Assembly: GCA_019637265.1 (NCBI GenBank)
Contig: JAHBVY010000015.1
Coordinates: 1-64,000 of the forward strand
Source: Polyangiaceae bacterium
GTDB taxonomy: Bacteria > Myxococcota_A > Polyangia > Polyangiales > Polyangiaceae
DNA: 64,000 nt
Direction of reading: 5' to 3'
Positions 39,901 through 50,254 of this stretch are shown here, in pieces. The notes under the pieces were generated by a model. That model made no database searches and was not told the origin of the DNA. It saw only the letters and a list, made by a program, of their open reading frames with translations. The position numbers and the translations under genes are program-made. Position 1 is the stretch's first letter; the number at the start of each line of letters is the position of its first letter.

Positions 39901-40623
39901 CTACACCGATTCGCCGCGCGCCGGTTGCCTCTGCGCCACACCGTCAATCAACCTCACGATAGCCGGCACCAGCTCCGTGAGCTGCTCCAGCCGGTCTTCT
40001 TCCAGCGCCTCGAGGGTGGCCTCGTTGATGCCCCCGACGATCATCGTCGCCACGTCGAGCCCGATCGGCGGTCCAGCGCCTGCTTCGTTGATGGCGTGCT
40101 GCAAAAACAGCGCGAAGCTTCGCATCACGCGGCGCCGCGCGGTGAGCCCCTCGGCGCCCAGCGACAAGATCTCGAGCAGCAGCGTGCGCACCACGCGGGG
40201 CCTCTCCTTCAAGCGCGCGAGGTACAGCATGGCGCCCGCCGCCACTCCGGCGGTACCCTGACCGCTGTGCTCCCCCTGCGCCGCCTGGAGCTCCAACAAG
40301 AGCTCGCTCGCCGCGCTCTCGAACAGCGCCAGCAGGCAGGCATCCTTCGTGGAAAAGTGCTCGTAGAACGTGCGCTTGGAGACGCGCGCCCGCCGGACGA
40401 TGTCCGCGATGGTCAGGTTACCCCATCCTTCGCCGCTGATGCAGTCCAGCGCCGCCGCCAGCAGCCGCTCACGCACCTCGGGCTGCGCCTCCGGTCCATC
40501 AGCCAAGCTCACGAGCTGCTGCTCCAGCGGATCACGCGGCCCTTCATTCAGGTTAGCATGGCTGTCGATGGCCTCCTGGGGCCTCCTCGCTCTCGGGGCC
40601 TCGGTCTGGGGGTCGGTTTGCAT
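39901..40623 (-). CDS. TetR-family transcriptional repressor
   Basis: A 240-residue protein beginning MQTDPQTEAPRARRP at 40623, after a region with no convincing start further upstream. A disordered tail of about 45 residues precedes the helix-turn-helix (VRERLLAAALDCISGEGWGNLTIADIVRRARVSKRTFYEHFSTKDACLLAL, about 50-100). The helical ligand domain follows. It is divergent from the monooxygenase gene at 40858, and the palindromes at 40744-40771 and 40790-40805 in the shared spacer are its likely operators, so it probably represses both directions until an inducer binds. Confidence 0.88.
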   Translation of the reverse strand: MQTDPQTEAPRARRPQEAIDSHANLNEGPRDPLEQQLVSLADGPEAQPEVRERLLAAALDCISGEGWGNLTIADIVRRARVSKRTFYEHFSTKDACLLALFESAASELLLELQAAQGEHSGQGTAGVAAGAMLYLARLKERPRVVRTLLLEILSLGAEGLTARRRVMRSFALFLQHAINEAGAGPPIGLDVATMIVGGINEATLEALEEDRLEQLTELVPAIVRLIDGVAQRQPARGESV

Positions 40624-40743: not shown

Positions 40744-40771
40744 TGGGATGGTACTTGACGGTACCATCCCA
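40744..40771. promoter_or_regulatory. Operator 1: perfect 11-base inverted repeat over a -35 element
   Basis: TGGGATGGTAC and GTACCATCCCA are perfect inverted arms around the six bases TTGACG (40755-40760). Those six bases fit a -35 box; TAGAGT at 40777-40782 is a fair -10 at a 16-base spacing, reading towards the monooxygenase gene. A repressor bound here would block the promoter. Confidence 0.65.
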
Positions 40772-40789
40772 GGCGCTAGAGTCCAGCTC

Positions 40790-40805
40790 GGTACTCGTGA
40801 GTACC
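40790..40805. promoter_or_regulatory. Operator 2: perfect 16-base palindrome
   Basis: GGTACTCGTGAGTACC is fully symmetric and shares the GGTAC half-site with operator 1. It lies at the expected transcription start, 50 bases before the monooxygenase ATG. Confidence 0.6.
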
Positions 40806-40857: not shown

Positions 40858-42363
40858 ATGCAAGAACTGGATGTCCTCATCATCGGCGCGGGCCTCTCGG
40901 GGGTGGGCGCCGCCTGGCACCTGGCCGAGCGCTGCCCGCAGAAGCGCTTCCTGTTGCTCGAGGGGCGCGAGGCGATCGGCGGCACCTGGGACTTGTTCCG
41001 CTACCCGGGGATCCGCTCGGACTCGGATATGTACACCCTGGGGTACCATTTTCGGCCGTGGCGCGGGAAGCAGGCCATCGCCGACGGCACGTCGATCCGC
41101 GAGTACATCAAAGACACGGCGCGTGAGGCGGGCATCGTCGATCGAATCCGCTTTCAGCGCCGCGTGGTGCGCGCCGACTGGCGCTCGGCGGAGGCGCGCT
41201 GGGTCGTCACCGCGGAGACCCCGAGCGGGCAAGAGCAGTACGCCGCGCGCTTCCTCTACGCCTGCACCGGCTACTACAACTATGAGAGCGGCTACACGCC
41301 AGACTTCCCCGGCGTCGAGAATTTCCGTGGGGATTTCATCCACCCGCAGCACTGGCCGGAGGATCTCGACACCAGCGGCAAGCGCGTGGTGGTGATCGGC
41401 AGCGGAGCCACCGCCATCACCTTGGTCCCGGTGCTCGCCGAGCGGGCTCGCCAGGTGACGATGCTGCAGCGCTCGCCGACCTACGTGCTCTCGCTGCCGG
41501 ATGACGACGTGCTCGCGCAGCTGCTCCAGCGCGCGCTCCCGGAGCAGCTCGCGTACTCCATCACGCGCGCGAAGAACGTCGCGCTGGGGTCACTGTTCTA
41601 TCAGTTCGCGCAGCGCTACCCGAAGCTCACACGGCGACTGCTCCGCCGCGCCGCCATCCATCAGCTGGGTGATACGGAGGTGGTGGATACCCACTTCAAC
41701 CCCCGCTACGACCCATGGGACGAGCGGCTGTGTGTCGCGCCGAACGGCGACATCTTCCGCGCGCTGCGTGAGGGGCGAGCGCAGGTGGTGACGGACACCA
41801 TCGAGGCCTTCACGGAGGACGGCCTGCGCCTCGGCTCGGGTGAGCACCTCGAGGCGGACGTGGTCGTCAGCGCCACGGGGCTCCGCGCCGAGCTGCTCTC
41901 CGGGCTCGCGCTCGAGCTGGAAGGCGAGCCGGTGGAGATGGCGGAGCGCACCGCTTATCGGGGCGTGATGTTCAGTGACCTGCCTAACTTCGCGGTCGCG
42001 GTCGGCTACACCAACGCCTCGTGGACGCTGAAGTGCGATCTCTCGGCGGAGCACGTGTGCCGGCTGCTGAACCACATGGATGAACGAGGCTACGCCCAGG
42101 TGACGCCGCGGGTGCGCGACGTCAGCATGCCGCGCTTGCCGCTCCTCAACCTGCAGAGCGGCTACGTGAAGCGCGCGAGCGCTGGCATGCCGAAGCAGGG
42201 CGCCTGGGGGCCGTGGCGGCTCCACCAGAGCTACCTGAGTGATCTGTGGTCGCTCCGCTACGGGCGCCTCGTCACCCCGGAGCTCGAGTTTGCGCGCGAG
42301 CCTCGAGCGGCGCGTGTCCAAGGGTCGGCGACCTCATCGGTCGCCCTAGCGGCTGCAGGATGA
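40858..42363 (+). CDS. Flavin-containing monooxygenase (Baeyer-Villiger/FMO type)
   Basis: A 501-residue class B flavoprotein. The FAD Rossmann motif is GAGLSG (10-15) and the NADPH Rossmann motif is IGSGATA (about 180-186). Between them lies FRGDFIHPQHWP, the FxGxxxHxxxW/Y fingerprint of FMO and Baeyer-Villiger monooxygenases. GGTWDLFRYPGIRSDSDMYTL is typical of the group. Such enzymes oxidise ketones, amines or sulfides with oxygen and NADPH; the substrate here is unknown. First gene of a two-gene operon under the TetR operators; the next start is ten bases downstream. Confidence 0.9.
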   Translation: MQELDVLIIGAGLSGVGAAWHLAERCPQKRFLLLEGREAIGGTWDLFRYPGIRSDSDMYTLGYHFRPWRGKQAIADGTSIREYIKDTAREAGIVDRIRFQRRVVRADWRSAEARWVVTAETPSGQEQYAARFLYACTGYYNYESGYTPDFPGVENFRGDFIHPQHWPEDLDTSGKRVVVIGSGATAITLVPVLAERARQVTMLQRSPTYVLSLPDDDVLAQLLQRALPEQLAYSITRAKNVALGSLFYQFAQRYPKLTRRLLRRAAIHQLGDTEVVDTHFNPRYDPWDERLCVAPNGDIFRALREGRAQVVTDTIEAFTEDGLRLGSGEHLEADVVVSATGLRAELLSGLALELEGEPVEMAERTAYRGVMFSDLPNFAVAVGYTNASWTLKCDLSAEHVCRLLNHMDERGYAQVTPRVRDVSMPRLPLLNLQSGYVKRASAGMPKQGAWGPWRLHQSYLSDLWSLRYGRLVTPELEFAREPRAARVQGSATSSVALAAAG

Positions 42364-42373
42364 TGGAGTGGTC

Positions 42374-44053
42374 ATGAGCGAGCTCAAAGTAGAGACAGGT
42401 CGCGTTCAGGTCGGTGACGTCAGCATCGCATACGACACCCGTGGCGCGGGTGAGCCGGTGCTCCTCATCCCAGGGCTCTCCATGCGCCGCGTGTTCTGGC
42501 CGGAGGAGCTGTGCGACTTGCTCGCGCGCGCCGGGCACACCGTGGTGCGCATCGACAACCGCGACGCGGGTGACTCGTCACGCATCAAAGCCCCACCGTC
42601 GAATCCCCTGCGCCTGATGGGTCGCGCGCTGCTCGGGCTCCCCACGGAGGCGCCGTATGGCCTGGAGCACATGGCGGAGGACGCGCTGGGGCTGATGAGC
42701 GCCCTGGGTCACGAGCGCTTCCACGTGGCGGGCGCGTCGATGGGCGGCATGATCGGTCAGCTGCTCGCCCTGAATGCCCAGGATCGCATCCTGAGCCTCA
42801 CCTCGGTGATGTCGTCGCCAGGCGGGCGCCGCTACTCGGTGTCATCGCCCCCGGCGCTGCGCGCGCTGTTCACGCCGCTGCCGGTGGGCCGCGCCGAGCG
42901 CATCGAGCACTACGTGCGCACCTTCCGCATGCTGGCAGGGAAGCTGCCCTTCGATGAGTCGGCCGCGCGCGCCCTGGCGACGCTCCAGGTGGACGGCGGC
43001 ACCTCGCCCGCCGCGAGCGCGCGTCACCTGGCGGCGGTGATCCGTTCGTCCCCTGGGCGTCGCCAGCGCCTGCCCGCCATCACGACGCCTACCTTGGTCA
43101 TTCACGGTGACGCCGACCCGCTGTTGCCGCTCCGCGGCGCGCGCGCCATGGCGCGCTTGGTCCCTCACGCGGAGCTGCTCATCGTCCCCGGCATGGGTCA
43201 CAATTTCCCTGCAGAATCGCTGCCGCTGCTCGCCGGGGCGATCGCCACCCACGCGCGCAAGGCGGGCCTATCGAAGCCCCCCGAGGTGAGCGCAGCGTTC
43301 GCCAGGCTGGATTTGCCCCGCGCCGCCCGCGCGCTCCGCGCCTTGTTGAATGACCCTGACGATTTGCCCCAGGTGTTCAACCTGATCGATGCGCTCACCT
43401 CGGAGCGACAGTACACGCGCCTCCACGCGCGCTTCCGCCAGAGCCGCGCGGGGCAGCGCCTGCTCCGGGAGCAACCCGACATCACGCGTCTCCTCGCGGA
43501 CAGGGAGTGGCTCCGGTGCCTGCCGGAGGGCAGCCTGGGGCGCGCGTACCTCGCGTTCGTGGAGCGAGAGCAGATAAGCTCCCAAGGGATCCGCGAGGCG
43601 AGCTCCGCCGGGCGCCCAGAGGCCAAGCTCGAAGGGGAGCTGCGCTTCATGTCGGACCGGATGCGCGACACGCACGATCTGTGGCACGCGGCGGTCGGCT
43701 ATCAGGGCGATGTGCTGGGTGAGCTGGGCCTGCTCGCCTTCACGTACGCACAGGTGCAAAATAAAGCAGTCGGACTGATTGTTCTGGCCGGCTTGCTGAA
43801 GGGCTGGGGCGAGCAGGTAGGCCGCGTGGTGTGGGAAGGCTACCGGCGGGGGCGCCGCGCGAGCTTCCTCCCGGCGCAGCCTTGGGAGGAGCTGCTCGAC
43901 TCGCCGCTCACTGAGGTGCGGCTGCGCCTGGGCCTCGAGGCGCCGCCCAGCTACGTCCCGGTGCGCACCGCCGAGCTGCGGGCACAAGGCGTTCTCAGCG
44001 GGGCGCCCGCGGCGCGAGGCGCCTCGAGGCCCTCGAGCCAGGCCGTGCCCTAA
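42374..44053 (+). CDS. Alpha/beta hydrolase fused to a COQ4 domain
   Basis: A 559-residue two-domain protein. Residues 1-295 form an alpha/beta hydrolase with nucleophile Ser122 (GASMGG), an acid in HGDADP (Asp246 or 248) and His276 (GMGHNFP). Residues about 310-480 form a COQ4 domain with the complete metal motif HDxxH-x11-E (His434, Asp435, His438, Glu450) followed by VQNKAVGLIVLAGLLKG. COQ4 acts in ubiquinone synthesis, where it is reported to remove and hydroxylate the C1 carboxyl. I do not know this fusion from standard examples. GGAG lies five bases before ATG 42374. Co-transcription with the flavin monooxygenase suggests one oxidation and ester-cleavage pathway. Confidence 0.85.
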   Translation: MSELKVETGRVQVGDVSIAYDTRGAGEPVLLIPGLSMRRVFWPEELCDLLARAGHTVVRIDNRDAGDSSRIKAPPSNPLRLMGRALLGLPTEAPYGLEHMAEDALGLMSALGHERFHVAGASMGGMIGQLLALNAQDRILSLTSVMSSPGGRRYSVSSPPALRALFTPLPVGRAERIEHYVRTFRMLAGKLPFDESAARALATLQVDGGTSPAASARHLAAVIRSSPGRRQRLPAITTPTLVIHGDADPLLPLRGARAMARLVPHAELLIVPGMGHNFPAESLPLLAGAIATHARKAGLSKPPEVSAAFARLDLPRAARALRALLNDPDDLPQVFNLIDALTSERQYTRLHARFRQSRAGQRLLREQPDITRLLADREWLRCLPEGSLGRAYLAFVEREQISSQGIREASSAGRPEAKLEGELRFMSDRMRDTHDLWHAAVGYQGDVLGELGLLAFTYAQVQNKAVGLIVLAGLLKGWGEQVGRVVWEGYRRGRRASFLPAQPWEELLDSPLTEVRLRLGLEAPPSYVPVRTAELRAQGVLSGAPAARGASRPSSQAVP

Positions 44054-47668: not shown

Positions 47669-50254
47669 ATGGCACGCTTTGGCCGCAGCCGCTTGGTCTC
47701 CCTCACGCCGCTCGGGGAGCTGAGCGGCGCGCGTCGTGAGGACGTGGGCACCCGCGGTGAGGAGCTGCGCGCCTGCCAGTTGCGTGGGGTGCCGGTGGTG
47801 AGCACTTGGGTGCTGCCCGGCGCGGTCCACCAGGCGTTGGTGGAGCAGGAGCTGCCGGAGGGGCACGACCTGGCCTCGCTGCTGCGCCACATCGATCGTC
47901 CGCGCGGCCTCGAGCGCGCGGCGCGGGCTCACCGTCGCCTGCTGCGCGTCGAGCTCCCGATCACGCTCGCGGCCGAGCTCGCCACCTTCTGGCAAGAGCA
48001 CGGGGCCGAGGCAGAGGGGGGAGTGAGCGTCAGCACCAGCCCCAGTTTGTCGCGGGCGCTGGCGGGGCACTCGGGGCTCATCGAGACGTGGACGGGGATC
48101 CGCTCGCCGGCGGAGCTCGCCGCCGCCATCCGTCGCGCGTTCGCGATCACCGTGTTCGAGACCACGCTGCTCTTCCTCAAGACGCAGCGCGTCCGCGACT
48201 TCAGCATGCCGGTGCTGATCCAGGCGCTGCCGAAGAGCACCCTCACCGGCTCGATGCTCACGCGAGTGCCGCTGCGTGAAGAGGGAGCCATCTCGGACAC
48301 GCGGGTGGTGCGCTACTGGAGCGGCTGGAAGACACCGCCGCGCGAGGGGGTGCGGCGCTCGCGGGTGCTGCGCTTCGATCCGTACGGAAACGTGTTGTCG
48401 CGCTCGCGTGAGGCGGGCTCGAGCGGCGATCAGGGGGACTCCGGGGAGGAGCCGTCGCAGCGCGCCGTGAGCCAGCTGGCGGCGCTGGCGACGCAGGTGA
48501 GCCGAGCTGACGAGGCCACGCAGATTGGCTTCGTGCTCACCGAGCAGGGGCCCTCGGTGTGGGACGTGGGTGAGGCGACGCGCCTCGTGCAGCTCTCCGG
48601 TGGGGAGCCGAGCACGGTGTGGTCGTTCGCCACGCTGGGGGAGATGCTGCCGGGCGTCACCGCGCCGCTCACCTGGTCGGTCGCGGCGCCGCTCTTGGGG
48701 CAGGGGATCGGCAAGGGGTTTCGTGAGGTGGGGCTCAAGCCGCCGAAGAGCCAGAGCCTGGTGGCGCGGGTGGATGGCCGCGCCTACTTCAACGTCTCGG
48801 CGTTCTTCAGCGCCGCCTCGCAGCTGTCGGCGGTCCACACGCCGAGCCTGATGGAGCTGATGGGGCTGCCGGAGCGTGAGGCGCTGGTGCCGGGCATGGG
48901 GCTCGAGCTCCAGGGCTCGCCGTCGATCGTGCGCTTGCCGCTGGTGCTGCTGCGGCTGGTGCGCGATCAGCGAGCGCTGGCGGACAAGGTGGCCGCCTTC
49001 GAGGAGCAGGCGGAGATCCAGCGGCGCTGGTTGGCCGAGATGGACTTGGCCATTTTGCCTGACGATGCGCTCAAGACCACCTTGGGTGAGACGCACGACT
49101 TCTTCAGCCGCACGAGCCACCTGCTCATCCACTGCGCGTCGGCGGCGCTCATCGCCTACGTGGCGCTGAAGACGCTGCTCGAGCGGCGCCATCACACCGA
49201 AGCGGAGGCGCTCGCGCAGGCGCTCACCGCGGGGGCTGGGGGGCTCGACACGCTGCACCCGGCGAGCGCGCTGATGAGGGCGCGGGAGGGCCTGCCGCGA
49301 GCGACGCCGAGCGATCGAGAGCGCCCGAATGGCGACGCGGACGCCTCGGATCCTGCCTTCGCAGCGGCGCTGCGCGAGCTGGTGGAGGCGCTGGGCGATC
49401 GCGGCACCTTCGAGGCGGACCTGTTGCGCCCGCGCTGGCGCGAGGTGCCCGAGGTGCTGGTGGGCCGCTTGCGATCGCTAGCGCAAGAGGACCTGACGAG
49501 CCTTCGCAGCGTGGAGCAGCGGGCGCTGGCGGCGCGCGCGCGGGCGGAGGCGACGCGCGTGCGGGTGAGCGAGCGGCTGAGCTACGTGGAGCGCGCGGCG
49601 CTGGAGAGCTTGATCCAGCGGTTCCAGCGCTTCCTCAAGCTGCGGGAGCGCGCGCGGGTGTGGCTGGCGCGCACCGCGAGCATGTTGCGGCAGGTGGTAC
49701 AAGAGGCTGACCGTCGCCTCGCGGGGCTCGATCCAGCGTTCCCGCGTGATGGCGCGTTTTACCTGACCTTCCCGGAGCTCCGCGCGGCGCTCGCGAGTGT
49801 CCGCGCGGATTTGGCGCCGATCGCGCTCTTGCGCCAGGCGGAGCACGCGGGGCAGCTCACGCGGCCCGATCCGCCGCGGCTGTTCGTCGGGGGGCCGCCG
49901 CTCATGGCGGTGCCGCCGCCGGCGCGCACCGTGCTCCGGGGGCTCCCGGGGGGCGCGGGGGTGGCCACCGGGCGCGCGCGGCTGGTGGGGCTGAGCGGCT
50001 CGCGGGGTGAGGCGCCGCCGCCCGGCGCGATCTTGGTGGTGCGCGCGGCTGACTTGGGCTTGGTGCCGGAGCTCTTGTGGGCGAGTGGTCTGGTGGTGGA
50101 GATGGGCGGGCCGCTCAGCCACCTGGTGGTGGCGGCGCGCGAGCTCGACGTGCCCTGCGTGACGGGGGTGAGGGACACCTTCGCGACCCTCGAGGAGGGC
50201 GAGCTGCTCCGCATCGACGGTGAGCGCGGCGTGGTGGAACGCTTGGATGGCTGA
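47669..50254 (+). CDS. PEP-utilizer-like protein with a swivelling His domain
   Basis: An 861-residue protein. The C-terminus is clearly the PEP-utilising mobile domain: [20 protein letters not shown], then [23 protein letters not shown] with the phospho-accepting His (His818) and the closing '[13 protein letters not shown]'. The N-terminal 330 residues look like a diverged PEP/pyruvate-kinase ATP-binding domain ([15 protein letters not shown] and similar), but the usual Arg and Gly-rich motifs are not clear. There is no TIM-barrel PEP domain at the end. Pyruvate:water dikinase relatives of this kind act on antibiotics or other small molecules. Overlaps the next start by eight bases. Confidence 0.7.

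Follow-up and report, generated by a model that had tools for sequence, protein, structure and literature searches.

A gene joining an alpha/beta hydrolase to a COQ4 domain lies in a putative TetR-controlled operon with a Baeyer-Villiger monooxygenase in a Polyangiaceae bacterium

What does a COQ4 domain do on the same polypeptide as an alpha/beta hydrolase, directly behind the gene of a flavin monooxygenase (FMO)? To our knowledge, COQ4 has long been among the least understood of the coenzyme Q proteins and has been studied almost only in the coenzyme Q pathway. The locus examined here lies in a stretch of 64,000 nucleotides from a Polyangiaceae bacterium (contig JAHBVY010000015.1), which is called the window in its full length. 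A first-pass annotation of this DNA had suggested that COQ4 was recruited to an inducible pathway of oxygenation and ester cleavage. In an organism apparently without coenzyme Q, a COQ4 beside a Baeyer-Villiger monooxygenase (BVMO) and a hydrolase suggests a second, unstudied job for this type of enzyme.

The fusion gene, recognized by Pfam matches and structure models, occupies positions 42374 to 44053 of the forward strand. Its reading frame begins with ATG, is open throughout, and encodes 559 amino acids plus a stop codon. The coding composition was of the typical high-GC3 kind in both halves and at the junction, and was even across the latter. The hydrolase part (residues 1 to 300; 42374 to 43273, forward strand) was assigned by Pfam, the catalytic triad, and a match to a solved structure. 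Abhydrolase_1 (PF00561) covered residues 28 to 278 with an E value of 7.6e-27 (95 bits, above the Pfam cut-off), and the nearest solved structure was 8pzg, "ORF17" (E 8e-52). The triad codons are found at 42737-42739 (S122), 43115-43117 (D248), and 43199-43201 (H276) on the forward strand, and the three residues were invariant across 20 aligned hydrolase sequences.

The COQ4 domain (about residues 310 to 541; 43301 to 43996, forward strand) was identified by Pfam, its motif, a structure model, and Foldseek. Pfam Coq4 (PF05019) matched residues 340 to 525 (E 1.2e-23, 84 bits against a cut-off of 22.9). An AlphaFold model of this part had a pLDDT of 94, and a Foldseek search with it returned 6e12 (E 4e-9, TM 0.75/0.84) and 3msq (E 2e-8), indicating a COQ4 fold. 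According to an alignment of COQ4 sequences, the metal motif HDxxHx11E is formed by H434, D435, H438, and E450 (43673-43723, forward strand). It was kept in all 44 distinct COQ4 sequences, so that the loss of these residues in homologs, which would have pointed to a structural domain only, was not observed. Moreover, the four motif residues (H, D, H, E), together with an R and a D just before them, were invariant columns among 34 aligned sequences. The first-pass annotation was therefore right that the two domains share one open reading frame and that the catalytic residues of both are complete. A model of the whole fusion, built from an alignment of 18 rows, displayed two confident domains and a floppy linker at residues 301 to 309 (43274 to 43300, forward strand; pLDDT below 50). 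Because of this linker and a pTM of 0.60, the model does not fix the mutual orientation of the domains.

The FMO-family gene in front of the fusion (PF00743; 40858 to 42363, forward strand) encodes a type I BVMO by motif. This type is defined by two Rossmann motifs and both fingerprints (PMC9044951), and all four were exact in the window protein, with BVMO1 reading GGTWDLFRYPGIRSD and BVMO2 reading FRGDFIHPQHWP. Between the end of the gene at 42363 and the fusion ATG at 42374 there are 10 bp, with GGAG among them. A TetR-family regulator (PF00440, E 1.8e-13) is encoded divergently at 39901 to 40623 on the reverse strand and is 59% identical to the Minicystis rosea TetR at the equivalent place. 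Position 40623 is probably its start; the ORF extends further upstream. Sequence comparison of the intergenic region revealed a putative operator at 40744 to 40771, a perfect 11-bp inverted repeat (TGGGATGGTAC-TTGACG-GTACCATCCCA) whose core, GGTACTTGACGGTACC, is letter-identical in M. rosea. A promoter-like element, TTGACG - 16 nt - TAGAGT (40755 to 40782, forward strand), has its -35 hexamer inside this repeat, and both hexamers and their spacing are identical in M. rosea. A second putative operator, GGTACTCGTGAGTACC (40790 to 40805), is also a GGTACN6GTACC site. The two palindromes of this form are 40 bp apart in the window and 39 bp apart in M. rosea. The 5.7-Mb genome contains only three such sites. 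Two are in the TetR-FMO intergenic region; the genome-wide search for a wider TetR regulon gave just the third, which is at chance level and lies by an ORF without an obvious connection. As judged from the sequence, the two conserved operator-like palindromes are good evidence for a local regulator, and a divergent operon under predicted TetR control, marked by conserved palindromes in the shared intergenic region, is found at both loci. The proposed placement of COQ4 under TetR together with an FMO/Baeyer-Villiger enzyme thus held. Elsewhere in the window, at 47669-50254, an ORF of 861 amino acids appears to be PEP-synthase-like: its C terminus is a PEP-utilising mobile domain, and it matches the PPDK N terminus weakly, below the cut-off.

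COQ4 and FMO/BVMO genes were neighbours in four genomes, in four arrangements. Apart from the window, these were TetR | FMO-SDR-ABH-COQ4-PF10118 in M. rosea (locus L002, genome G143; ABH, alpha/beta hydrolase), COQ4-FMO-SDR-ABH with a divergent regulator reading like the PucR type in genome G132 of the same family, and TetR | COQ4-FMO in a Myxococcales MAG (L018), whose monooxygenase has a degenerate BVMO2 motif, YRGRVVHPQKWT. Hydrolase and COQ4 are separate in M. rosea, where they are neighbours, and in G132. In the nearest partial locus (G002), an SDR gene is followed by a hydrolase gene that is cut off by the contig end. A tree of COQ4 proteins placed those of the window, M. rosea, and G132 in a clade with 100/99 support. 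L018 branched apart from this clade, and the COQ4-BVMO pairing therefore requires two or more changes on the tree. Both genes were present in 36 genomes of the order; comparison of coordinates showed COQ4 and FMO side by side in 3 of these, and COQ4 therefore also works without a BVMO partner. Several features of these loci were recorded in passing. The last gene of the Minicystis operon (L002:6731-7561), absent from the window operon, encodes a PF10118 predicted metal-dependent hydrolase (286 bits). G132 carries a second COQ4 gene, stand-alone and TetR-linked (L180, C20:75045-75740), about 80 kb from the operon copy, so both forms coexist. A PucR-type regulator replaces TetR divergent from the FMO operon at L124:9079-10341 and L195:4618-5847 (annotated in Rhodococcus fascians, read from the sequence in G132); this is regulator swapping around the same enzymes. 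In the Minicystis genome, GGTACTCCGGAGTACC and near variants lie in clusters of about three with similar spacing within a cluster (G143 C1:9069260-9122187 and 15432812) and are probably part of a repeated element.

With these parts, we tentatively propose, at somewhat less than even confidence, a TetR-controlled operon that would convert a ketone to an ester, the ester to an acid and an alcohol, and the acid further in a metal-dependent COQ4 step. The substrate would be a hydrophobic ketone, or a precursor that yields such a ketone on oxidation; the SDR of Minicystis and G132 could make the ketone. The BVMO, given its strict motifs, would place an oxygen next to the carbonyl to yield an ester or lactone, and the hydrolase half, given its intact triad, would split it. 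The released product would then be the substrate of the COQ4 half, a metal enzyme whose fold binds lipid, most likely for a metal-dependent decarboxylation of the acid; this step is the least certain. The fusion would hold the hydrolase and COQ4 steps together. That two COQ4 lineages show the COQ4-BVMO pairing speaks for such a pathway. FMO-hydrolase is likewise a recurrent unit: the genes overlap in R. fascians and Streptomyces, and one protein combines them in Deinococcus radiodurans, where a single ORF of plasmid pMP1 (L198:4933-7434), annotated as an alpha/beta hydrolase, spans the BVMO match and is thus a hydrolase-BVMO fusion. Mycobacteroides has an SDR-FMO pair. In the known COQ4 decarboxylation, the substrate is a prenylated aromatic acid, and a simple aliphatic acid would therefore be a different reaction. 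Zn-dependent decarboxylation was demonstrated for a resurrected animal COQ4, which lost activity upon changes to its HDxxHx11E residues (PMC7615680). As for the first step, aliphatic ketones such as 2-octanone are substrates of EthA-type BVMOs (PMC9044951), and AlmA converts 2-dodecanone to decyl acetate (PMC12388405); the window FMO seems nearest to EthA and AlmA rather than to other type I BVMOs, an assignment based on length and context and not on a tree.

The main rival to a catalytic third step is that the COQ4 half holds lipid or acts as a scaffold, presenting a hydrophobic substrate to the hydrolase and the BVMO without any chemistry of its own. The COQ4 homologue in 6E12 binds oleic acid, with Mg at the HDxxHx11E motif (PMC9774615). 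COQ4 also belongs to a multi-enzyme complex, and fusion to a hydrolase fits substrate delivery. However, the invariant motif residues and the R and D preceding them would be superfluous in a pure scaffold, and the activity of animal COQ4 depends on this motif. We consider the scaffold rather unlikely.

The fusion itself could be an accident: neighbours that act apart would have been joined through the loss of a stop codon or through an error in the sequence, and the operon would be real but the fusion meaningless. No second hydrolase-COQ4 fusion was found in 59 relatives, 377 Myxococcota genomes, or a scan of genome contigs, and the fusion is therefore derived and private to the window genome as far as sampled; the genomes in these collections are a sample, and neighbouring genes can be missed where a contig stops. 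Long COQ4 ORFs at other loci resembled high-GC read-through of the start. Thus, of the two things for which other genomes were searched after the first-pass annotation, the fusion was seen in no other, and the operon recurs, rearranged, in M. rosea, G132, and L018. Besides its occurrence in one genome and the separate genes of Minicystis and G132, the linker itself fits an accident: a TCG codon is one base from TAG, so that a single change would split the fusion into two genes, and a GTG codon stands a few codons before the COQ4 domain. This GTG, however, has no good ribosome-binding site ahead of it, and both halves retain every catalytic residue with an even composition across the junction, which does not settle the point. 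An accident is unlikely in our estimation. Recruitment of COQ4 to an inducible oxygenation and hydrolysis operon, as suggested in the first-pass annotation, is supported at the sequence level by the recurring operon, the BVMO motifs, the conserved predicted operators, and the retained metal residues.

The operon could also serve detoxification: an antibiotic, or another xenobiotic acting as a TetR ligand, would be inactivated by the BVMO and the hydrolase. In NCBIfam, the hydrolase half matched macrolide esterases best (EstX/EstT/mle; E 4.6e-38), aclacinomycin methylesterase was among its nearest solved structures, and the local TetR has its two operator-like sites. Yet the score of 131.2 bits lies far under the macrolide-esterase cut-off of 420, the operon has no transporter, and COQ4 and SDR would be left without a role. 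This makes detoxification improbable.

It is highly improbable that the fusion gene serves ubiquinone or menaquinone synthesis, even though such a role would match the known COQ4 function and the fusion is the sole COQ4 of the genome. The first-pass annotation had raised that last point as a caution, which stood as far as the gene count is concerned. The quinone markers disfavour the role drawn from it. Contig 8 carries MenD, and a UbiA-family gene follows it at a distance of about 1.5 kb. MqnA/D were not found in the genome, and the futalosine route to menaquinone was rejected on this ground. UbiG, the only ubiquinone-specific marker searched, stayed below its cut-off. The organism thus appears, from its gene content, to be without coenzyme Q synthesis, and the presence of MenD without a UbiG over cut-off makes a ubiquinone role unlikely. 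In the genus-mate G001, the COQ4 is more distant and has no FMO nearby. Across the order, a COQ4-like gene (E ≤ 1e-30) was present in 52 of 183 genomes and UbiG over cut-off in 14; the two coincided only in G154, that is, in 1 of the 52 COQ4 genomes. The earlier statement that COQ4 is otherwise tied to ubiquinone synthesis hence needs correction. The ubiquinone role was rejected on the UbiG and MenD evidence in the genome and on the UbiG evidence across the order, and most COQ4 carriers have the gene beside a divergent TetR.

That last arrangement was seen in 34 of the 43 COQ4 genes examined besides the window (threshold 2.6 kb, most pairs lying within a few hundred bases). At many of these loci, palindromes of the form TGTnnnTAG..CTAnnnACA precede the aligned COQ4 start by some 50-135 bp. 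The stand-alone COQ4-like genes among loci L003-L194 (e.g., L024, L186, L018, L026, and L029), from Myxococcota and in one case from a Spirochaeta MAG, mostly show this divergent TetR with a palindrome of that type in between. Neighbour clustering of the stand-alone COQ4 loci gave no shared downstream gene beyond TetR, and we found no paper on a conserved TetR-COQ4 pair in the literature. With TetR divergent in 34 of 43 cases and the metal motif in 44 of 44, COQ4 in the order looks like an inducible accessory enzyme. It is possible, if doubtful, that bacteria using menaquinone have COQ4 proteins of a functional class of their own, namely inducible metal-dependent enzymes that would carry out the last step of Baeyer-Villiger/esterase routes, in which a hydrophobic acid is decarboxylated and perhaps also oxidised; in the window, esterase and COQ4 would be one bifunctional protein. 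Among such bacterial COQ4s, coupling of the BVMO type occurs twice and fusion to a hydrolase once. This large, TetR-linked, motif-intact set, from bacteria that apparently lack ubiquinone synthesis, offers a tractable place to probe the chemistry and substrates of the COQ4 site.

Compared with these stand-alone pairs, whose proteins are about 39-60% identical to the Minicystis COQ4 and share its motif and an adjoining divergent TetR, the window locus differs in its BVMO (absent near the others except L018), its TetR, and its palindrome. With the COQ4 family (PF05019; animal COQ4 and Nostoc Alr8543, 6E12), the window protein shares the fold and the full HDxxHx11E motif, at about 22% identity to the solved COQ4 structures. 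Unlike that family, it is fused to a hydrolase and belongs to a BVMO operon, and its genome has genes for menaquinone but apparently none for ubiquinone. Type I BVMO operons like those of EthA, MymA, and AlmA, in which the BVMO gene adjoins a hydrolase, an SDR, and a TetR or PucR regulator, resemble it in the BVMO fingerprints, the FMO-ABH pairing, and the divergent regulator, whereas COQ4 was absent from all five annotated plasmid examples examined. PcaDC (PcaCD) is an enol-lactone hydrolase fused to 4-carboxymuconolactone decarboxylase, and thus a precedent for an alpha/beta hydrolase and a decarboxylase acting in consecutive steps on one chain. The PcaDC model scored 88.6 bits against the window hydrolase half (E 4.4e-25), far under its cut-off of 390, and the second domain of the window fusion is COQ4 instead of a carboxymuconolactone decarboxylase.
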